This document shows positions 10,530 to 18,923 of a DNA stretch of 47,402 nt, piece by piece; the stretch's first letter is position 1; each line of letters starts with the position of its first letter. The notes beneath the pieces were generated by a model that saw nothing but the letters and a program-made list of their open reading frames with translations, had not been told where the DNA came from and did not search any database. Position numbers and translations under genes: made by a program. The stretch comes from SAR202 cluster bacterium. Lineage in GTDB: Bacteria > Chloroflexota > Dehalococcoidia > Lucifugimonadales > OSU-TB39. Location: NCBI GenBank assembly GCA_009392195.1, contig VFGY01000036.1, positions 1 to 47,402 of the forward strand. The letters run 5' to 3'.

Positions 10530-10558
10530 TTGACAAAGTTACTTTACCGCAGTATATT
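10530..10558 (+). promoter_or_regulatory. Sigma-70-type promoter for the first sulfur operon
   Basis: A consensus -35 TTGACA (10530-10535) and a -10 TATATT (10553-10558) are separated by exactly 17 bases. Transcription would begin near 10565, leaving about 75 bases before the leader peptide at 10641. An equivalent TTGACA-17-TATATT pair stands upstream of the second leader at 13890, and the two share further bases just before the -10 (C-C near its start and GTATATTT across it), which supports both as real. Confidence 0.75.
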
Positions 10559-10640: not shown

Positions 10641-10733
10641 ATGAAAAATAGAATTCTTATTAATTCATTAGTAACAAATAACTGTTCTTGTTGTAACTAC
10701 CTAAAAGCAATTAGTGAGGTAGTAACTATCTGA
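10641..10733 (+). CDS. Cysteine-rich leader peptide 1 (upstream of the YeeE/YedE operon)
   Basis: A 30-residue ORF, ATG 10641 to TGA 10731-10733. It carries the block NNCSCCNY with Cys codons at 10683, 10689 and 10692, and ends ISEVVTI. Both blocks recur in frame in the leaders at 14016 and 18242. It begins 6 codons earlier than the other two. No Shine-Dalgarno is evident. The peptide is probably not functional itself: its translation speed over the cysteine codons would report Cys-tRNA supply, as in amino-acid operon leaders. The gene it controls starts at 10803. Confidence 0.82.
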   Translation: MKNRILINSLVTNNCSCCNYLKAISEVVTI

Positions 10734-10774
10734 TTTCAACTGATTAAGTAACACTTAAAAACATGTAACTTACG

Positions 10775-10802
10775 AAACCTCACAACTCGTGAGGTTTTTT
10801 TT
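10775..10802 (+). terminator. Attenuator terminator 1
   Basis: The stem AAACCTCAC/GTGAGGTTT (10775-10783 with 10789-10797) has a 5-base loop and is followed by a T run to 10802. The ATG of the transporter gene follows at once, and the GAGG in the 3' arm (10791-10794) is the only ribosome-binding-like sequence before it. The hairpin may therefore also hide the initiation region. Confidence 0.85.
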
Positions 10803-12056
10803 ATGGGATTTTTTATGACAACTTTAACTAAAAATACATCACAAACTTTTAAGATAAATAGAAATAATTTAATTCTAAGTGGAATTATTCTTCTTATATC
10901 TATCGTTTCAACATGGTTTTTCGCATCTGTAGACCACAAGTTCGCTGCTATTTGGCTGTTATCAAATGTTGCGGGCTTTGTATTGCAACGTAGCAGATTC
11001 TGTTTTGCTTCAGGATTTCGGGATTTATTCCTTTTCGGAAGTGGAGCAAATATGAAGGGAATAATTCTCGGCTTAGTAGTATCAAGCATAGGATTTACAG
11101 CAATACTTCATTGGATAACGCCTAATATTTTAACAGGGGACGTAGCAACAGATGCTCATGTGTTCCCAGTTGGAATATCAACCATAGTAGGTGGACTTTT
11201 ATTTGGCTTTGGAATGGTTATTGCTGGAGGATGCGTTTCCGGTACATTGTACAGACTAGGTGAAGGATATCTGACGTCTATAAGTTCTTTAATCGGGATA
11301 TTTTTGGGAATGGGTGCTTTAATTTTAACTTGGAACTGGTGGTACGAAATAGTTATCAAAAATGAACCACAAATATGGCTTCCAAAATTGGGTAAAATCG
11401 GTTATTTCGGTGCCCTTTCAATCACTCTTTTGGTTTTAGGCCTGATTTTCTTGTTGATAAATTGGTGGGAAGCGAAAAACTCAATTCCAAACATGCCGGC
11501 TGTACAAAACAACCAAATAGCAATGACGTTAAAAGAAAAATTGACCTCCTACTATAAATCGATATTTATTGATGGGTGGTCAGTGGCTTTAGGTGGATCA
11601 ATCTTAGGTGGATTAGCTGTAATCATGTTTATCGTCAAAAAACCATTTGGAGTCACAGGTGGGATTTTCGAACTAACGAATACTGCTTTAGTTGAAAGTG
11701 GAATCGGACCTCAAGTTTTAAAAGGTTTAGATGACTTAGGTGGATGTATAGGAAGCGGAGGAGAAACATTATTCACAGCTGGTATTGCAATGACATTTGG
11801 AACCATTGTTGGTTCAGTCATTGGTTCTACAGCTTCAGGCGAATTTAAATTGAGGATTCCTCCTACACCTGTCAGATATATACAAGGTTTAGGCGGCGGT
11901 ATATTTATGGGCTACGGTTCAGGTTTAGCAATAGGGTGTACAATAGGAGCTCTTTTTTCATCTATCCCCTCTCTTAGTTTGAGCGGATGGGTATTTGGAT
12001 TAGCTTTGACCATAGGGGCATTCATCGGAACAAAAATTATCAAGAAAATGATATGA
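10803..12056 (+). CDS. YeeE/YedE family transporter, TsuA-like thiosulfate importer
   Basis: 417 residues, strongly hydrophobic with many membrane segments, in two related halves. The family cysteines are all visible: C67 (SRFCFASGFRD), C144 (AGGCVSG), C315 (GGCIGSGGE) and C379 (AIGCTIGALFS). In the characterised family member TsuA, conserved cysteines line the path of thiosulfate, and a TusA-like partner (TsuB) works with it. Here tusA lies two genes downstream, which supports a sulfur-compound substrate. The start is ATG 10803 or 10815; 10803 has GAGG 8 bases upstream in the terminator arm. It overlaps the next gene by 4 bases (ATGA). A cysteine attenuator precedes it. Confidence 0.9.
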   Translation: MGFFMTTLTKNTSQTFKINRNNLILSGIILLISIVSTWFFASVDHKFAAIWLLSNVAGFVLQRSRFCFASGFRDLFLFGSGANMKGIILGLVVSSIGFTAILHWITPNILTGDVATDAHVFPVGISTIVGGLLFGFGMVIAGGCVSGTLYRLGEGYLTSISSLIGIFLGMGALILTWNWWYEIVIKNEPQIWLPKLGKIGYFGALSITLLVLGLIFLLINWWEAKNSIPNMPAVQNNQIAMTLKEKLTSYYKSIFIDGWSVALGGSILGGLAVIMFIVKKPFGVTGGIFELTNTALVESGIGPQVLKGLDDLGGCIGSGGETLFTAGIAMTFGTIVGSVIGSTASGEFKLRIPPTPVRYIQGLGGGIFMGYGSGLAIGCTIGALFSSIPSLSLSGWVFGLALTIGAFIGTKIIKKMI

Positions 12057-12316
12057 ACACCTCCGACTCTAATGAAAAATCCAAAGTTGATAGCGAATTC
12101 CAAAAGTACTCCTTAGTTGGAAGTCCTTTTAAGGATCAATTAAAAGAACTAGATAGATTAATAGAGAAAACTAAATCTGGAACAAACATACAAATAGAAA
12201 CAGATCAAGAAAATTTGATCGCAATCGCTCCAATGAAAGCGATGCAAGGCAAGTTGAAATGTTCAATTTCAAAATCTGAAACTAATAACTGGTTATTGAA
12301 ACTAAAAATTAATTGA
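12053..12316 (+). CDS. Small protein of unknown function between YeeE and TusA
   Basis: 87 residues starting at the ATG of an ATGA overlap with the transporter stop, so it is translationally coupled to it. The N-terminal third is polar and charged; a short amphipathic helix follows (KDQLKELDRLIEK), then a strand-rich part with a single Cys in KLKCSIS and an end of NNWLLKLKIN. I recognise no family. The size, a lone Cys and a position between a thiosulfate-type transporter and TusA suggest a sulfur-relay or transporter accessory role, but this rests on context only. Confidence 0.75.
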   Translation: MNTSDSNEKSKVDSEFQKYSLVGSPFKDQLKELDRLIEKTKSGTNIQIETDQENLIAIAPMKAMQGKLKCSISKSETNNWLLKLKIN

Positions 12317-12331
12317 GAGGAGAATTATTAA

Positions 12332-12562
12332 ATGGCTAATCAAGAAACTTTAGACGTTCGAGGAGAAATATGTCCTTATCCTATGTTAAAAACGAACAAA
12401 CAGCTAGACGAAATCACTCCAGAAGTCGAAATACTCGATGTTATAACTGACCATGCACCTGCTTTAATGACTATTCCTCCACAAGCTGTTAAAAGAGGAT
12501 ACTCATGTGAAATTGAAGAAACCTCACAGGGAGAATGGAAACTACATTTAGTAAAAGAATAA
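12332..12562 (+). CDS. tusA: TusA-family sulfur carrier
   Basis: 76 residues, the standard length. The sulfur-carrying motif C14-P-Y-P17 follows LDVRGE, matching the family's CPxP box, and the fold ends with GEWKLHLVKE. TusA-type proteins accept a persulfide on the Cys and pass it on; with YeeE/YedE transporters they take sulfur from imported thiosulfate. A strong ribosome binding site (GAGGAGAA) precedes the ATG, 16 bp after the previous stop. It is the third gene of the attenuator-controlled operon. The gene symbol refers to the family; the TsuB-like role is inferred from the neighbour. Confidence 0.9.
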   Translation: MANQETLDVRGEICPYPMLKTNKQLDEITPEVEILDVITDHAPALMTIPPQAVKRGYSCEIEETSQGEWKLHLVKE

Positions 12563-12596
12563 ATAATTAATTTATTCCCAAAAGAATTCTACAACC

Positions 12597-12683
12597 ATGA
12601 ATATTGAAACACACAACTACTGTACCTGTATTAAGCGTTTGTGGCATGTGCAACAAACGCGGAACTGTCAATCAATCATTTAA
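12597..12683 (+). CDS. Possible cysteine-containing leader ORF before the rhodanese gene
   Basis: A 28-residue ORF, ATG 12597 to TAA 12681-12683, with codons NYCTC early and a third Cys near its end. It lies between tusA and the rhodanese lipoprotein, ending 6 bases before the latter's AAGGAG. It is not homologous to the three attenuator leaders, but its Cys codons precede a hairpin (12635-12660) much as theirs do. No clear ribosome binding site. It may be chance. Confidence 0.3.
   Translation: MNIETHNYCTCIKRLWHVQQTRNCQSII
12635..12660 (+). promoter_or_regulatory. Intergenic hairpin between tusA and the rhodanese gene
   Basis: GCGTTTGT (12635-12642) pairs perfectly with ACAAACGC (12653-12660) around a 10-base loop that can add two more pairs after a G-A mismatch. 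No T run follows, so it is not a terminator. It could set mRNA stability or processing within the operon, or act with the small ORF around it. Confidence 0.5.
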
Positions 12684-12702
12684 CAATCAAGGAGAAAATA
12701 AA

Positions 12703-13674
12703 TTGAATAAATTGAAAGGAATCACAAAAATACTAATAGCAGCAGGAATATCGGTAGCTGTTTTTGCTTTATTAGCATGTTCAACTTCTGATTCAGGACC
12801 TAGCACTTCAGATGACTCTGCAGTTGCAGCAAAAGGGTATAAAAACCCTGACAGAATTGTAAGCGTAGCATGGCTTAACAAACATATTAACGATGAAAAT
12901 TTAGTTATTGTTGACGTCAGAAGTCTTACAGAAGGAGAACCAGTTAAATATAACGAAGGACATATACCTGGAGCAATTAACATCCCAGCAAACACTACTT
13001 TCCAGCAAACAGTTGATGGGGTAAAAGGAATGTTGCCTTCAGCGGCTCATATAGAAGGGGTATTGTCAGATCATGGCGTTAAGGCAACAGATACTATCAT
13101 TTTCTATGATGATATCAAAAGTCTCTGGGCTTCTAGAGCTTTATGGGGTATGGATGTTTATGGGCACAAAGATTCAAAACTTTTAGACGGAGACATCAAT
13201 CTATGGATTGCAAAAGGTTATGCAACTTCGCAAGAGACAGCTACATTAGCTAAATCCAACTACAAATTCAGCGGAAGTCCCAATACTGAATTGATTGTCG
13301 ATTTAGATACCGTTGCTAAATCTATTGAAGGTAAAGCAGAAGTCTTAGATACCAGAAGTTCAGATGAATATGTAGGAAAGAATTTGAGAGGAAACGCAAG
13401 AGGTGGACATATTCCTGGCTCAGTTCTAGTTGAATGGAAACAAAATGCAGCGGAAGATGGTTCATTTTTACCAGCAAAAGATCTAAAAGACCTTTATGCT
13501 AGCGTTAATATAGTTTCTGGTGACGAAATATACACACTTTGTCAAACAGCAGTTAGAGCTACTCATTCATGGTTTGTATTAAGCGAATTGTTAGGCTACC
13601 CTAATATTTCGGTATATGATGGGTCTGCTATAGAATACGCAAACAGAGAAGATACGGCTTTAGAAATACGTTAA
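12703..13674 (+). CDS. Tandem-rhodanese lipoprotein (thiosulfate sulfurtransferase type)
   Basis: TTG 12703 is chosen because AAGGAG (12689-12694) precedes it and it starts directly at a lipoprotein signal; the frame is open further upstream without such support. 323 residues: basic start, hydrophobic core, lipobox LLAC with Cys26. The first rhodanese domain (VIVDVRS, EGHIPGAINIP) has no active Cys (YDDIKS at the loop). The second (VLDTRSSDEY, GGHIPGS) has the loop C280-QTAVR, the persulfide Cys. Family knowledge: it moves sulfane sulfur from thiosulfate to a thiol acceptor, here outside the membrane. It is the last gene of the attenuator-controlled operon with YeeE and TusA. Confidence 0.9.
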   Translation: MNKLKGITKILIAAGISVAVFALLACSTSDSGPSTSDDSAVAAKGYKNPDRIVSVAWLNKHINDENLVIVDVRSLTEGEPVKYNEGHIPGAINIPANTTFQQTVDGVKGMLPSAAHIEGVLSDHGVKATDTIIFYDDIKSLWASRALWGMDVYGHKDSKLLDGDINLWIAKGYATSQETATLAKSNYKFSGSPNTELIVDLDTVAKSIEGKAEVLDTRSSDEYVGKNLRGNARGGHIPGSVLVEWKQNAAEDGSFLPAKDLKDLYASVNIVSGDEIYTLCQTAVRATHSWFVLSELLGYPNISVYDGSAIEYANREDTALEIR

Positions 13675-13707
13675 AATCGTAAATCTTAGTTAACAGAATT
13701 CATATTG

Positions 13708-13757
13708 ATAATACCTGCTTTCACAATAAACACTCTTTATTTGTCAGCAGGTATTAT
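13708..13757. repeat. Long inverted repeat after the sulfur operon
   Basis: ATAATACCTGCT (13708-13719) and AGCAGGTATTAT (13746-13757) are exact inverse complements around a 26-base loop. It follows the rhodanese stop by 34 bases. There is only a short T-containing tail (TACTTGTT), so it may be a weak terminator or an mRNA 3' end structure. The rest of 13758-13889 shows nothing I can identify. Confidence 0.55.
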
Positions 13758-13889
13758 TACTTGTTAAGGCTCTTGAAATTCACTCACATCTAATGCATGG
13801 AATAGATTAAATAGTTCTAATTTTCCGATAAAGCATATCCAAATCAGGTATAAATTTGTAACAGTGGAATTTACTTTGATTTTTAAATA

Positions 13890-13918
13890 TTGACAAATAA
13901 AGATATCCACCGTATATT
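13890..13918 (+). promoter_or_regulatory. Sigma-70-type promoter for the second leader
   Basis: TTGACA (13890-13895), 17 bases, TATATT (13913-13918), the same arrangement and hexamers as at 10530. Transcription would start near 13925, about 90 bases before the leader ATG at 14016. An alternative extended -10 (TG then TAATAC at 13997-14002) lies much closer to the leader and cannot be excluded. Confidence 0.72.
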
Positions 13919-14015
13919 TTTTTATACTGAATAATTTGTAACAATAGGTACATACATAATATATAAAACAATTACATGTTAGAAAATTTAACTTTGTAAT
14001 ACTAATTTTTGAAAA

Positions 14016-14090
14016 ATGAAACCATTCGTAATAAATAACTGTTCTTGTTGTAACTACATCCAAAATATTAGCGAGGTAGTAATTATCTGA
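14016..14090 (+). CDS. Cysteine-rich leader peptide 2 (upstream of the beta-propeller lipoprotein)
   Basis: A 24-residue ORF, ATG 14016 to TGA 14088-14090. It reads MKPFVINNCSCCNY, then IQNISEVVII. Cys codons are at 14040, 14046 and 14049. It is nearly identical to leader 3 at 18242 and shares the Cys block and the ISEVV end with leader 1. Such protein-level agreement in a short ORF just before a terminator argues for selected translation. No Shine-Dalgarno is obvious. Confidence 0.85.
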   Translation: MKPFVINNCSCCNYIQNISEVVII

Positions 14091-14130
14091 TTGACCTAGA
14101 TTAAAATAGTACTAAATAACTGGACTTATG

Positions 14131-14160
14131 AAACCTCGCAAAATAGCGAGGTTTTTTTTT
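14131..14160 (+). terminator. Attenuator terminator 2
   Basis: AAACCTCGC (14131-14139) pairs with GCGAGGTTT (14146-14154) around a 6-base AT-rich loop, followed by nine T's to 14160. It lies 36 bases before the lipoprotein start, after which a separate ribosome binding site is used. Confidence 0.88.
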
Positions 14161-14196
14161 GCTCATGAAAATCAAAATACGTTAAGGAGTATAGAA

Positions 14197-15534
14197 ATGA
14201 ATTTTAAATCGTTATATAGATTTGTATTGGTGCTGATGATGGTACTTGTTACAGCAGTTGCATGTAGCTTTGCAGAAAGTTTTCTACCAGAAATGGAACC
14301 TTCCTACGAAGTATGGGCTGTTGACCAATCTCCCACTGTTAGTGACGGGACTGGAGGACTACTATACATATGGGACGGGGAAGATATTTTTCTAAAGGAT
14401 GCTAAGAATGCACCTCATGAGATTATAGATTTGGCAAAGGCAGCTAAAGACGCTGGTTGCGAAGCCCCGAAAAAGCCTCATATGATACTTTCCAACTTTA
14501 CCACCCCAAAGGCCAGCCACGCCATTCTAGCCAATGTAGGTTCTGGTAACACTTTCTTCATAAATATTGCCAGCCGTGAGATCGTCGGCTGTGTCAATAC
14601 AGTAGGGGGTTTCAATGGAGCAGGTGGAACAACAAATTCCCACGCCTCAGTTGCATCTCCTGATAATAGCATGGCCATAGTTGCAAATATTGGAGCAAAA
14701 GATGAGTCAGGATTCTTACATAAGATTCATACTGACTACACTAGTGATAATTACAAGTTAGTTGATACATTGGCATTAGACCAATTCTCAACTGACTTAG
14801 GTACTTCGGTGGCGCGACCCATCTGTCACGAGTTCACTAGTGACAGTAAATTCGCCTACATAACTTTAGCTGGTGGAGGTTTACTGGTAGTAGACGTGGG
14901 CTCTGCAGACGGAACCATACCTATGACCGTTGTGAAAGTTTATGACAAGGCCACCGTTCCAGGCATCGGTTGTGGTGTATCTCGTTTACCTTTTAATAAG
15001 ATAATGACTAATGGTGAAAGTGGGGCTAAAGGAGGAGATGATTTCCTTTATACATTTGATGCTAGTAGAGCTATAGATGGAATATTCCCTGATCCAGTAC
15101 AAATTGAACTCCCAGGTGAAGACACACATGGTGCGGTAACCTGTACTGACCAAAAGGGCGATTTATTTGCAATAACCAGCATGCGGGTAAGTAATGACGT
15201 CAACTTTGTCGACCTCCAAACCAATAAGGTCGTAGCGACTCAGTCGATGGCAACGTCCTTCAGCCCCGATCCAAAGCCCGACGTAGCAGACATCGTCGGT
15301 AATAAAATGTTCATTGCGCTACGTGGTTCTAAACCGCTGTCTGCTATCGGCTCCCTTGAGAACTCACGGACACCAGGGGTGGCTGTTCTGACAATAAGCG
15401 ATGATTGCAAAAGCTCCAGTTGGGAAGAGAAGGATCTCGCATCAATGGACGACCCAGACAGGGTGATTGCTCTTAAAGATGGAACAGAAGTATCAGCTTC
15501 CGACCCACACGGTCTGGTAGTGATACTAAGATAA
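14197..15534 (+). CDS. Beta-propeller lipoprotein (YVTN/YncE-like) under the cysteine attenuator
   Basis: The start is ATG 14197 with AAGGAG at 14184-14189; the in-frame ATG at 14128 lies inside the terminator and is not used. 445 residues: hydrophobic signal and lipobox AVAC with Cys23, then repeated blade motifs such as SHAILANVGSGNTFFINI, NSMAIVANIG, KFAYITLAGGGLLVVDV and DLFAITSMRVSNDVNFVDL. Several blades carry His, and there are six further Cys, including PICHE and GIGCG. It is probably a surface protein that binds a ligand or metal; no enzyme activity can be assigned. The G+C content is plainly higher than in its neighbours, hinting at acquisition. Its control implies a link to sulfur or cysteine supply. 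Confidence 0.8.
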   Translation: MNFKSLYRFVLVLMMVLVTAVACSFAESFLPEMEPSYEVWAVDQSPTVSDGTGGLLYIWDGEDIFLKDAKNAPHEIIDLAKAAKDAGCEAPKKPHMILSNFTTPKASHAILANVGSGNTFFINIASREIVGCVNTVGGFNGAGGTTNSHASVASPDNSMAIVANIGAKDESGFLHKIHTDYTSDNYKLVDTLALDQFSTDLGTSVARPICHEFTSDSKFAYITLAGGGLLVVDVGSADGTIPMTVVKVYDKATVPGIGCGVSRLPFNKIMTNGESGAKGGDDFLYTFDASRAIDGIFPDPVQIELPGEDTHGAVTCTDQKGDLFAITSMRVSNDVNFVDLQTNKVVATQSMATSFSPDPKPDVADIVGNKMFIALRGSKPLSAIGSLENSRTPGVAVLTISDDCKSSSWEEKDLASMDDPDRVIALKDGTEVSASDPHGLVVILR

Positions 15535-15554
15535 GAATTTATAACGGTTAAATT

Positions 15555-15591
15555 GAAATAACATGGGTTGGAATTCGACCCATGTTATTTC
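15555..15591. terminator. Terminator after the beta-propeller gene
   Basis: GAAATAACATGGGT (15555-15568) and ACCCATGTTATTTC (15578-15591) form a 14-bp stem with a 9-base loop 20 bases after the stop codon. The flanks are A/T-rich, so it may work in both directions. The remaining 15592-15842 has no gene; an AT-rich near-palindrome around 15801-15822 could end the convergent dehydrogenase transcript. Confidence 0.65.
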
Positions 15592-15842
15592 ATTAAATAG
15601 CGTTGATATAGTTTATAGAAAATCAGTATCAACTTTTTTACAAACCTTTGTTAACAATATGGAATCACGGTTGTTTTCAAGCTATATTTATTAGTCCAAC
15701 TAAATAAATCAGCATGTAGCGAATCAGCAACATGATATTCAAGCAGACAAGTTAGATATCTTGAATAATTTAATATTATCGATATTTATCTACAATTTTC
15801 ACTTAAGTAAAAATTGATTTAAAAATAAACCATCATTATTTG

Positions 15843-18107
15843 TTACAAGGTATCATTTTTAGACTTGATTGCACTTAAAACTGCAGACGGATTCATCGGT
15901 AGTGCTTCCAATCTAATGTCTAAAGCATTATTTATTGCATTAGCTATGGCAGGTAATGGAGGAACTATATTCGCCTCGCCAACTCCTCTCACTCCAAATG
16001 GATGGGATGGATTAAAAACTTCTATAATAACTGGATCAATATATGGCATATCTAGAGTCGTTGGCATCCTATAATCTAAAAAGCCATTATTTACCATATA
16101 TCCTTTTTGATTCATATAATATTCTTCATTTAATGCCCATCCTATACCTTGAACGGTACCTCCTTGTATTTGTCCTTCAACAGTATCTGGATTTACAGCA
16201 GTACCAACATCTTGAAAAGCGGTACATTTGGAGATATCGATTTTACCTGTTTCTACATCTATTTGAATGTCAATAATATTCGCTGAGTAAGACGCACCTG
16301 ATCCAGGTGGATTTATATTGGCCCTTCCAACAATAGGACCTCCCGTATCTGGCAGTAAATGAGAAATTTCTTTAAAATTCAACTTCAATTGATCATCATG
16401 CTTATGCTTTACAACCCCTTTGGAATATTCAACATCGGATTCAGGGACATCCCATATTTTTGAAGCTCTTTGTATAATTTGATTTTTAACATCATTCGCT
16501 GCGATGTATGCAGCAATGCCTGTTTTAAATGCCACTCCACTACCACCAGAATTTGAAGTAAATCCAATCGTATCAGTGTCCCCTACCTGAGGAATTACGT
16601 CTGAAATTTCAAGCCCAAGTACCTCAGCGAATTGTTGTGCTACTCCAGTTCTACTTCCTCCAATATCAACTGAACCTTCTATCAGACTTACGGTACCATC
16701 AGATAATACATTTGCAACTACACAAGATTCACCCGAATTGTTTCTACAAAACCCCATTGCAATTCCACGACCACTAATCTTGCCATTTGATTTGGCAATT
16801 GGTGCTACATAATGGGGATGTTTTTTAACAGCTTCCATTACTTCTTTAGCTCCAATTCTCAAATTCATTATCCCATCGGCTCTCCTAGTATTTTCCGTCG
16901 CTACGTTTTTCAATCTAAATTCGATTGGATCAATATTAAGTTTAGAAGCTATTTCATCAATCACTGTTTCCACTCCGAAGCTGACAATAGGCGCTCCAGG
17001 GGCACGGTAAGCCGCAGTTTTAGGTTTATTTACCACCACGTCTAATCCTTTAATTTCAACATTTTCTATATTGTAAGAAGCAAAAACTGCAGCCGATGCA
17101 CCTGGTAATGGTGCTCCTGAATAAGCTCCGGCTTCCAATGCATAAAAGGCTTTAGCTGCTAAAATTCGTCCTTCATTGTTAGCACCAATTTTTATTTTCA
17201 AATAACTGCCTGATGTTGGTCCGGTAGCTTCAAAAACTTCACTTCTTGTCATCGTCATTTTTACTGGCCGCCCTGATTTTTTTGAAAGTACGGCAGCTAC
17301 TGGTTCTAAATATATTGGATTCTTCCCACCAAATCCTCCTCCGATTTCCATAGGGATAACTTTTACTTGAGAATTGGATATCCCCAATAATCTAGACACA
17401 TTATTTGCTACTGTAAAATGCCCTTGGGTACTAGTCCATATAGTCAATCTATTCTCTGGCGACCACCAAGCCGTAGATGTTTGTGGTTCTATATAACCTT
17501 GATGAACAGACTTAGTTCTAAATTCTCTTTCTACAATACAATCCGCTGATTGAAATCCTTTCTCCAAATCACCCATTACATTATGCTGTACTTCAGCTAA
17601 ATTATTACTGTAATTATTATCAATTTGTTCCCAGTGGTCATGTAAAACCGGAGAACCAATTTGTAGGGAGGTCTCAACATCCATAACTTCTTTCAAACAC
17701 GTATATTTAACTTCAATTAATTCAAGTAGTTCTTCTGCTAAATGGGGATTAGATGCAGCAATCGCTGCAATAGGATGTCCTTTATATAAAACTTTATCTG
17801 TAGCCAATATGTTATGACTTTCGGTTTTTCTTAATACAACCTGTTGTGAAGTAGGTGGATCAATTTCTAGGTCATCACATGTTGCTACCGCTTGAACATC
17901 TGGATGTGCTAAAGCTTTACTAATATCAATTGATTCAATTATGGCATGAGCATGAGGACTTCTCAGTACTTTTCCGTAAATAATCCCTGGAAGAGTGATA
18001 TCAGCTCCATAAAAAGCTTTACCTGTTGTTTTGTCAGAACCGTCATGTTTTATAGGACTAGAACCTACCACCATATAATTTTTGTTATCGGAATCTTTAA
18101 CGGTCAT
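15843..18107 (-). CDS. Xanthine dehydrogenase/aldehyde oxidase family, molybdopterin-binding large subunit (orphan)
   Basis: 754 residues, full length for a large subunit of the XdhA/CoxL group. The small N-terminal domain (TTGKAFYGADI, about 27-37) is followed by the Moco-binding domains with QGHF at 228-231, GGGFGG at 256-261, AYRAPGAP at 366-373 and the catalytic Glu711 in GVGE. These enzymes hydroxylate purines, aldehydes or N-heterocycles with water. No FAD or 2Fe-2S subunit gene is adjacent in the window, so its electron partners must be elsewhere. ATG at 18107 has AGGA on the minus strand. The CoxL motif AYXCSFR is absent, so CO oxidation is unlikely. Confidence 0.92.
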   Translation of the reverse strand: MTVKDSDNKNYMVVGSSPIKHDGSDKTTGKAFYGADITLPGIIYGKVLRSPHAHAIIESIDISKALAHPDVQAVATCDDLEIDPPTSQQVVLRKTESHNILATDKVLYKGHPIAAIAASNPHLAEELLELIEVKYTCLKEVMDVETSLQIGSPVLHDHWEQIDNNYSNNLAEVQHNVMGDLEKGFQSADCIVEREFRTKSVHQGYIEPQTSTAWWSPENRLTIWTSTQGHFTVANNVSRLLGISNSQVKVIPMEIGGGFGGKNPIYLEPVAAVLSKKSGRPVKMTMTRSEVFEATGPTSGSYLKIKIGANNEGRILAAKAFYALEAGAYSGAPLPGASAAVFASYNIENVEIKGLDVVVNKPKTAAYRAPGAPIVSFGVETVIDEIASKLNIDPIEFRLKNVATENTRRADGIMNLRIGAKEVMEAVKKHPHYVAPIAKSNGKISGRGIAMGFCRNNSGESCVVANVLSDGTVSLIEGSVDIGGSRTGVAQQFAEVLGLEISDVIPQVGDTDTIGFTSNSGGSGVAFKTGIAAYIAANDVKNQIIQRASKIWDVPESDVEYSKGVVKHKHDDQLKLNFKEISHLLPDTGGPIVGRANINPPGSGASYSANIIDIQIDVETGKIDISKCTAFQDVGTAVNPDTVEGQIQGGTVQGIGWALNEEYYMNQKGYMVNNGFLDYRMPTTLDMPYIDPVIIEVFNPSHPFGVRGVGEANIVPPLPAIANAINNALDIRLEALPMNPSAVLSAIKSKNDTL

Positions 18108-18241
18108 TTTTATATCCTATTGAAAATTTATAAATATCTTGGTTTCTATTTTACAAAACATTGGCAATTTTTTAACCAATGAAACAATCAGTATCTAAAA
18201 CATTTCTTTCATTAACAATCTTTGGTAAAATATAAAAAAAA

Positions 18242-18316
18242 ATGAAGCCATTCGTTATAAATAAATGTTCTTGTTGTCACTACATCCAAAATATTAGTGA
18301 GGTAGTAAGTATCTGA
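18242..18316 (+). CDS. Cysteine-rich leader peptide 3 (upstream of the DUF4395 gene)
   Basis: A 24-residue ORF, ATG 18242 to TGA 18314-18316. It begins MKPFVINKCSCCHY and continues IQNISEVVSI. Cys codons are at 18266, 18272 and 18275. Compared with leader 2 only three residues differ (N8 to K, N13 to H, I23 to S), and several other codons differ silently (AAA/AAG, GTA/GTT, AGC/AGT). Silent differences beside conserved amino acids favour a translated ORF. No clear Shine-Dalgarno and no consensus promoter is seen in 18108-18241; a weak TTGAAA at 18120 is the best -35. Confidence 0.85.
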   Translation: MKPFVINKCSCCHYIQNISEVVSI

Positions 18317-18355
18317 TTGCCCTAGATTGAAATAATACTAAATAACTAGAAGTAT

Positions 18356-18388
18356 AAGACCTCACAAAAAGTGGAGGTCTTTTTTTTT
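18356..18388 (+). terminator. Attenuator terminator 3
   Basis: AAGACCTC (18356-18363) pairs with GAGGTCTT (18374-18381), extended by AC/GT across a bulged G at 18373, then a T run to 18388. It stands 43 bases before the DUF4395 start. Confidence 0.85.
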
Positions 18389-18431: not shown

Positions 18432-18923
18432 ATGAATACAATTAATAATCTGTTTAGTTTTCCAAATCCAGTAAACGAATTCTCTGCTAGATTCGTTGCA
18501 GGAATGGTTTCAATTTTAACCGTTGCAACAATTTTAACTGAAAATGAATTCGTCGCAGGATTTTTATTGTACGGATTTCTTGCACGAGTCGCGACCGGTC
18601 CAACATTAAGTCCAATGGGTCTACTTGCAACTAGGGTAATTGTGCCTGCATTAGGTAACCCTACTAAATTAGTGGCAGGCCCTCCAAAACGTTTTGCTCA
18701 AACCGTTGGATTGGCTTTTTCTACTACAGCTTTTGTTATGCTTATACTTGATTTTATTTTGATATTTCAAATTACATTGGCAATTCTAGTAATATTCGCT
18801 CTACTAGAATCTGTTGTAGGTTTTTGTGCAGGTTGTTTCGTATTCAAGTACTTGATGAAATGGAAAATAATACCTCAATCAGTATGCGAAAGTTGTTTTG
18901 TAGGAGGAAATGAACAAACCTAA
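18432..18923 (+). CDS. DUF4395 family membrane protein
   Basis: 163 residues matching the DUF4395 pattern: FPNPVNEFSARFVAG at the start, YGFLARVATGPTLSPMGLLATR, GPPKRFAQ, and a C-terminal part with a CxxC in a membrane segment (C132-AG-C135) and a second CxxC (C152-ES-C155). Three or four membrane spans are likely. The function is unknown; two CxxC pairs suggest thiol redox or sulfur transfer in the membrane. It is preceded by a cysteine attenuator, linking it to sulfur metabolism by regulation. AAGGAG (18411-18416) lies 15 bases from the ATG, an unusually long distance. The stop overlaps the convergent LLM gene by 4 bases. Confidence 0.88.
   Translation: MNTINNLFSFPNPVNEFSARFVAGMVSILTVATILTENEFVAGFLLYGFLARVATGPTLSPMGLLATRVIVPALGNPTKLVAGPPKRFAQTVGLAFSTTAFVMLILDFILIFQITLAILVIFALLESVVGFCAGCFVFKYLMKWKIIPQSVCESCFVGGNEQT

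Follow-up and report, generated by a model that had tools for sequence, protein, structure and literature searches.

Candidate cysteine-responsive leader attenuators in front of sulfur genes of SAR202-type Chloroflexota

Ribosome-mediated transcription attenuation is a classical mechanism known from the trp, his and ilv operons. Polycysteine leaderless short open reading frames (ORFs) of mycobacteria are said to respond to cysteine, and little is known about how genes are regulated in SAR202, a large ocean group that is for the most part uncultured. An excerpt of PMC1262725 describes actinobacterial cys leaders as Cys-rich and without a conserved terminator hairpin, while the uORFC-8-2 motif, which combines tandem Cys codons with an intrinsic terminator, was reported only before cysS of Rhodobacterales in the excerpt of PMC8632094. 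According to part of a 2010 survey, leader-peptide systems were known only in Proteobacteria and Actinobacteria, to which Firmicutes were added (PMC2965389). Here we describe three short Cys-rich ORFs (leaders a, b and c), each followed by an intrinsic terminator and a gene, in a 47,402-nt stretch of DNA from a SAR202 cluster bacterium (contig VFGY01000036.1; hereafter the window). The window (G+C content 36%) corresponds to contig C36 in a draft genome of 2.05 Mb with 97.9% completeness and 9.2% contamination.

We propose that leaders a, b and c and their relatives are ribosome-mediated transcription attenuators that read the supply of cysteinyl-tRNA, and put the probability of this reading at roughly 0.86. 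What we infer from the sequence is that the leaders are translated, that ribosomes stall on them, that transcription reads through and that the signal is cysteine. Translation of the leader ORF would set in directly upon its transcription. When charged tRNA-Cys is plentiful, the ribosome would reach the stop codon and cover region 2 (the ISEVV codons), so that regions 3 and 4 would pair and transcription would end before the sulfur gene. When cysteine is short, the ribosome would stall on the clustered Cys codons and cover region 1 (the Asn-Tyr codons), which would leave region 2 free to pair with region 3; no terminator would form and the genes would be transcribed. Without translation, regions 1 and 2 would pair and the terminator would form. 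The targets in the order would include, as a minimum, TusA/rhodanese, DUF4395, peroxiredoxin, PF04143 transporters and gene b. Some MetY genes would also be among them, and there a switch of the codons to Met, or to a mixture of Met and Cys, would re-tune the device.

Such devices would share with the trp, his and ilv attenuators the codons for the sensed residue, the 2:3 and 3:4 alternatives (and possibly 1:2, which has mild support across the set), the intrinsic terminator and the stall geometry. They would differ in sensing cysteine (also methionine or a mixture), in serving sulfur uptake and transfer genes, in often looking leaderless and in occurring in Chloroflexota. With the mycobacterial and actinobacterial Cys leaders, likened here by description from partial sources, they have in common the Cys-rich short ORFs before sulfur genes; whereas no conserved terminator appears in the excerpt of PMC1262725, the leaders collected here as a rule have a terminator to which the leader end is matched.

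The ORFs, codons, terminators, alternative pairings, geometry, spread and gene association can be read from the DNA sequences. All three ORFs listed in an initial annotation of the window are present on the forward strand: leader a (10641-10733, 30 aa, peptide MKNRILINSLVTNNCSCCNYLKAISEVVTI; Cys codons at 10683, 10689 and 10692), leader b (14016-14090, 24 aa, MKPFVINNCSCCNYIQNISEVVII; Cys codons at 14040, 14046 and 14049) and leader c (18242-18316, 24 aa, MKPFVINKCSCCHYIQNISEVVSI; Cys codons at 18266, 18272 and 18275). About 42 nt downstream of each leader stands a U-tailed hairpin, followed by the gene. The terminators claimed for each leader were recovered as well, terminator a (10774-10798, regions 3 and 4 plus U run) and terminator b (14130-14155) by a consensus terminator scanner, and terminator c (18356-18381, plus U run), whose stem has one mismatch, by our own scanner only. 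A scan of the whole window for the signature (a short ORF with at least three Cys in five codons plus an intrinsic terminator) returned exactly these three leaders, compared with a total of one in 20 first-order Markov shuffles of the window. Over about 133 nt, leaders c and a are 86% and 79% identical to leader b, respectively; the three leaders are paralogous, so the window by itself does not provide three independent observations.

Region 1 of leader a (ACUACCU, 10696-10702) lies inside and 3' of the Asn-Tyr codons and pairs in the predicted fold with AGGUAGU at 10717-10723. The ACUAC of the Asn/His-Tyr codons is complementary to GUAGU within the ISEVV codons, and a 1:2 hairpin appears in the predicted folds of leaders a and b. 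The Ile-Ser-Glu-Val codons (AGYGAGGUA) can additionally pair with ACCUCRC in the terminator 5' arm. Region 2 of leader a (AGUGAGGUA, ISEV codons, 10713-10721) has its antiterminator partner at 10776-10784, region 2 of leader b (AGCGAGGUA, 14070-14078) at 14132-14140 (AACCUCGCA), and region 2 of leader c (AGUGAGGUA, 18296-18304) in the 5' arm of terminator c. Copy b uses the Ser codon AGC where a and c use AGT, and the partner base is matched in both the 5' and 3' arms of its terminator. Pairing can thus account for the NY and ISEVV codons and leaves the Cys codons unexplained by pairing, which is the classical attenuator layout.

An antiterminator between the leader end and the terminator 5' arm is also supported statistically in 42 representatives clustered from 91 leaders, which had been collected by requiring a terminator. 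The predicted duplex between the leader (from the first Cys codon to just past the stop) and the terminator 5' arm was stronger than for shuffled leaders in 15 of the 42 at p<=0.05 and in 37 at p<=0.5. The combined values (Fisher 2.6e-14, Wilcoxon 1.2e-8) are overstated and indicative only, since the leader sequences are related. The same test on a control segment 5' of the Cys codons gave two representatives with p<=0.05 (Fisher 0.33). Region 2 begins at least 15 nt past the first Cys codon in 41/42 representatives. Its end lies between -15 and +18 nt relative to the stop codon, again in 41/42, a figure partly set by the search zone, whose limit was 9 nt beyond the stop codon. In 36/42, there are two or more Cys codons at which a stall would leave the pairing zone free. 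Cys is encoded in the divergent leaders by both TGT (242) and TGC (111).

Among the alternatives, the one that survives best, although we consider it improbable, is that the main point of action of the leaders would be translation or Rho-dependent termination, as suggested for mycobacteria, and not the intrinsic terminator. The only GAGG between the stop of leader a and the start of gene a lies in the 3' arm of terminator a; it may also serve as the Shine-Dalgarno sequence of gene a, which the hairpin could then mask. Mycobacterial cys leaders, as far as the excerpt of PMC1262725 describes them, have no conserved terminator hairpins. At units b and c, however, the Shine-Dalgarno sequence lies outside the hairpin, and in the leaders, which were collected by requiring a terminator, the terminator 5' arm also partners the leader end, a pairing that was no condition of the collection.

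Because relatives share almost no leader sequence, anchor genes and not a covariance model were used for comparison. The comparison set was an order with 250 genomes (SAR202-type Chloroflexota), in which the source family is represented by this genome only, and the target families (DUF4395, PF04143, peroxiredoxin, MetY, gene b and cysS) were our choice. The comparison across relatives that the initial annotation had called for gave a positive outcome: sulfur genes in many parts of the order stand behind Cys leaders that have terminators and differ widely in sequence. A strict Cys leader plus terminator within 350 nt was detected at 23/49 PF04143 anchors, at 34/111 DUF4395 anchors, at 10 of the 15 testable anchors of gene b homologues (with clusters up to CCCLCCCLCCC) and at 16/21 peroxiredoxin anchors, a set that is partly biased because L012, L013 and L018 were found through their leader. 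Chloroflexota loci found by peroxiredoxin similarity alone (L069-L076) carry a leader in six of eight cases. DUF4395 occurs in 115/250 genomes, with attenuators at 43 of the 110 loci inspected (about 15 of roughly 130 PF14340 places, mostly fragments or weak matches, were left out), and PF04143 in 54/250 (48 above cut-off), with Cys leaders at many. Strict leaders were present in at least 11 of 41 families (f1, f2, f5, f27, f32, f35, f36, f37, f38, f40, f41), and in one genome a Cys leader stands 5' of a TusA-rhodanese operon (L264). Outside the Cys cluster the peptides are unrelated (TDCLCCCTTSEEMAL, NCCCCRNDRFLL, FCCCPNNNFGVA, NCACTCRTNHEIVAGGQV). Taken with the antiterminator statistics, this comparative anchor test lends support to attenuation, for a set wider than the three genes of the initial annotation.

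No Cys leader was found within 350 nt at 72 peroxiredoxin anchors of other phyla, nor at 43 DUF4395 anchors outside the order. The latter were the passing anchors of 70 loci (two of the same class, the rest of the same phylum), and scanning all 70 yielded no attenuator, with two weak matches put down to chance. Within the order, 0/49 cysS anchors had a Cys leader within 350 nt, so that cysS is not supported as a regulon member; this sets the system apart from uORFC-8-2 as excerpted, since several other genes carry the leaders instead. In an amino-acid control covering about 1100 nt at 108 DUF4395 anchors, Cys scored 45, Leu 8 and the others 0-3. When the rule was relaxed to two Cys in a stretch of three codons, with longer loops allowed in the hairpin (1000 nt), Cys reached 57/111 DUF4395 anchors and the next residue, Thr, 20. 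At PF04143, Asn and Leu reach 8/49, so the background is not nil. Anchors were left out when less than 250 nt (350-nt gene comparison) or less than 300 nt (20-amino-acid DUF4395 scan) lay upstream. Some places were counted twice (L012/L069, L013/L070, L071/L242, L072/L243, L076/L223 and L167/L190), as were genomes G081 and G087 for PF04143; the leader peptides of L013 (G234) and L070 are the same. A search of the 250 genomes with the pattern AAYTGYTCNTGYTGY gave matches in 99, with many control matches too, and no clear new attenuator at 30 loci (L039-L068), where the matches fell mostly by chance inside long frames. NCBIfam contained no family for seven leader types (nine entries). At four loci (L153, L158, L169, L175), an ORF 5' of DUF4395 resembles by eye the C-terminus of cysteine synthase (GGWKYLSTGLW or similar).

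In a DNA search of the source genome, only the terminator of a further element matched (E 2.4e-4). It is preceded by a leader ending MMDCCCKTLHKNVRLH, which encodes a different peptide and follows the same pairing logic as the window copies (ATGTGAGGCTACA with GTAAACCTCACAA). The gene behind it encodes a pyridoxal-phosphate (PLP) enzyme of Cys/Met metabolism (PF01053, E 4e-131), by our reading of the MetY type. A MetY search of 247 genomes yielded 47 with E<=1e-60, and within 350 nt of 47 MetY anchors we found 11 Met-rich and five Cys-rich leaders, with neither kind at about 31. Cys leaders precede MetY in the source genome, G107, G123, G090 and G092. Among the gene sets tested, for which the four best other residues per gene were listed, Met is the top residue at MetY only. 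Met leaders such as TMNMNMMMMTFSEGEA occur at eight MetY loci of one genus (L409-L412, L414, L415, L417, L424), and that genus uses Cys leaders at DUF4395 and PF04143; a Met-rich example with a terminator reads TMNMNMMMMTF. In seven Met-rich leaders tried, the leader end pairs with the terminator arm (no shuffles were made). Mixed Met/Cys leaders with terminators, e.g., FAHMMCCVMGSCMT and HMMCCVMGSCMT, precede MetY in six genomes of another genus (L391-L396) and are possibly two-amino-acid sensors. In our view, this codon swap is the best evidence that the codons matter, and not the chemistry of the peptide. At three further loci (L383-L385), MetY is preceded by a structured leader that resembles a S-adenosylmethionine (SAM) riboswitch by eye (CCGGCAACC...AAGGTGCC) and was not called at the Rfam gathering score.

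The swap bears on a second alternative, in which the Cys-rich nascent peptide would sense a metal (copper, zinc) or oxidants and stall or release the ribosome, with no role for cysteinyl-tRNA. Soft metals are generally known to be bound by Cys-Cys and Met-Cys strings, and a peroxiredoxin is among the leader targets. A copper-responsive upstream ORF has also been reported (excerpt of PMC9426467). Against this stand the otherwise unconstrained peptides, which range from CLC to CCCLCCCLCCC, and the lead of Met at the methionine gene only, among the sets tested. None of the Cys leaders was seen in front of a gene for metal transport, a weak point since the targets were chosen by us. We hold peptide sensing to be slightly less probable still than control at translation or Rho.

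Several observations weigh against cysteine attenuation as proposed here. In folding, leaders a, b and c reach modest z-scores (-2.0, -1.7 and -1.1), and the best fold of leader c does not contain the 1:2 hairpin. Across the representatives, support for the leader self-fold is mild overall (p<=0.05 in 7/41, Fisher 1.4e-4). The antiterminator is weak in G+C-richer genera, with p over 0.5 at, for example, L162, L166, L189, L203 and L216. Within 350 nt, no strict Cys leader was found at 77/111 DUF4395, 26/49 PF04143 and 42/47 MetY anchors. Finally, terminator-like sites alone are not enriched in the region (three found, 4.9 expected), which counts for a chance origin; promoter-like sites are not enriched either (23 found, 32 expected), and the unusual feature is the terminator combined with the Cys ORF, not terminators or promoters alone. 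While short ORFs are common, the window copies are paralogous and terminator-like sites are not in excess, chance short ORFs beside ordinary terminators are scarcely credible, since the sets tested show specificity of the signature for Cys (Met at MetY), for particular sulfur genes and for this order, and the amino-acid, antiterminator and gene-set tests refute chance for the set as a whole, although single weak members may be chance.

A second class of leaders also weighs against a purely Cys-based reading. In four genomes (G031, G039, G041 and G042), a conserved short ORF encoding K/E-DDLFHL(C) precedes peroxiredoxin, MetY, DUF4395, gene b and TusA/rhodanese genes (L497-L500, L513-L521). These leaders show many synonymous changes, and their terminator often reads GCCCGTTC...GAACGGG. 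In G041 and G042 the terminator is kept and the conserved RFKDDLFHLC contains one Cys codon, once two. In G039 a hairpin is present that falls below our terminator rule, and in G031 four of the five leaders are without Cys and no terminator was found for two. Since the number of Cys codons in these leaders is one, zero or in a single case two, not all of them can be accounted for by starvation at such codons. Loss of Cys codons with the terminator kept, which the initial annotation had named as contrary evidence, is seen in a few relatives, as one or no Cys in a different conserved peptide. In a pattern search of 75 genomes, 17 matched KDDLFHL with at most one mismatch, exact matches occurring only in the same four (in G042, one exact copy and two with a mismatch); in other genomes, one-mismatch matches are no more than a reversed-pattern control gives. 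Our guess is that KDDLFHL is an arrest peptide. By eye, KDDLFHL leaders also precede a ThiF/MoeB-like gene and two membrane proteins.

With regard to the genes in the window, the initial annotation had named a thiosulfate-type transporter with TusA and rhodanese, a beta-propeller lipoprotein and a DUF4395 protein. The first and last assignments hold: gene a (10803-12056) belongs to PF04143 (Sulf_transp, E 1.6e-59) and is followed by TusA (12332-12562, E 1.7e-17), which to judge by the spacing shares its transcription unit, and by a rhodanese (12703-13674, E 4.8e-29; the ORF opens at 12604, with the likely start at 12703), and gene c (18432-18923) encodes DUF4395 (PF14340, E 1.4e-34). For gene b (14197-15534, likely start at 14197, 3' of terminator b), a lipoprotein without an assigned family, the beta-propeller was not borne out, as neither a Pfam match nor a PDB sequence match was found and the single-sequence fold had a mean pLDDT of 37. 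Homologues of gene b occur in 17 of the 157 genomes searched, with 72-91% identity in the relatives found. Between units b and c, the reverse strand (15843-18107) encodes a molybdopterin-binding hydroxylase subunit of the aldehyde oxidase/xanthine dehydrogenase family.

Units a and b are preceded by sigma70-like promoters of the form TTGACA-17-TATATT, at 10530-10558 (11/12 matches) and at 13890-13918 (from the promoter scan), respectively. Promoter a lies about 80 nt 5' of leader a, so leader a would not be leaderless from this promoter. The start gap was analysed for 94 leaders, using for each the top sigma70-like promoter in the 60 nt before the start and taking the best of several possible starts. 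The gap between the -10 box and the start peaks at 9 nt (25/94 leaders; the peak has no shuffled control) and is 6-10 nt in 46/94, which often looks like leaderless or nearly leaderless starts. Since the best promoters of window leaders a and b are strong and lie about 80-100 nt upstream, these two may differ from the leaderless-looking set.

SAM riboswitches and T-boxes likewise attenuate transcription of sulfur or other amino-acid genes. Rfam gave no relevant match in the window region up to E 1 (no T-box or SAM riboswitch) and none at the gathering score in the leaders of 20 further loci. Near one PF04143 locus and outside its leader (L268, 996-1071, reverse strand), Rfam reports a SAM_alpha match at 37.0 bits (cut-off 36). 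The literature matches listed contained nothing on attenuation through cysteine or methionine leaders in SAR202 or Chloroflexota. The principle is known; what seems to be new is the regulon, the group that hosts it, the recoding between Met and Cys and the second class of leaders.

In a broader picture, which we regard as an even bet, SAR202-type bacteria would control a sulfur amino-acid regulon via fast-evolving leaders with a freely recoded residue, namely Cys at sulfur acquisition and Met or Met/Cys (two-signal) at MetY, with the arrest-type KDDLFHL(C) of one clade taking over the same targets. If true, the cysteine-attenuation regulon would mark which SAR202 genes serve sulfur assimilation, including DUF4395 and lipoprotein b, and would be a source of native cysteine and methionine sensors. 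It would also add a phylum to those with leader-peptide attenuation and would bring with it a natural codon-swap experiment.

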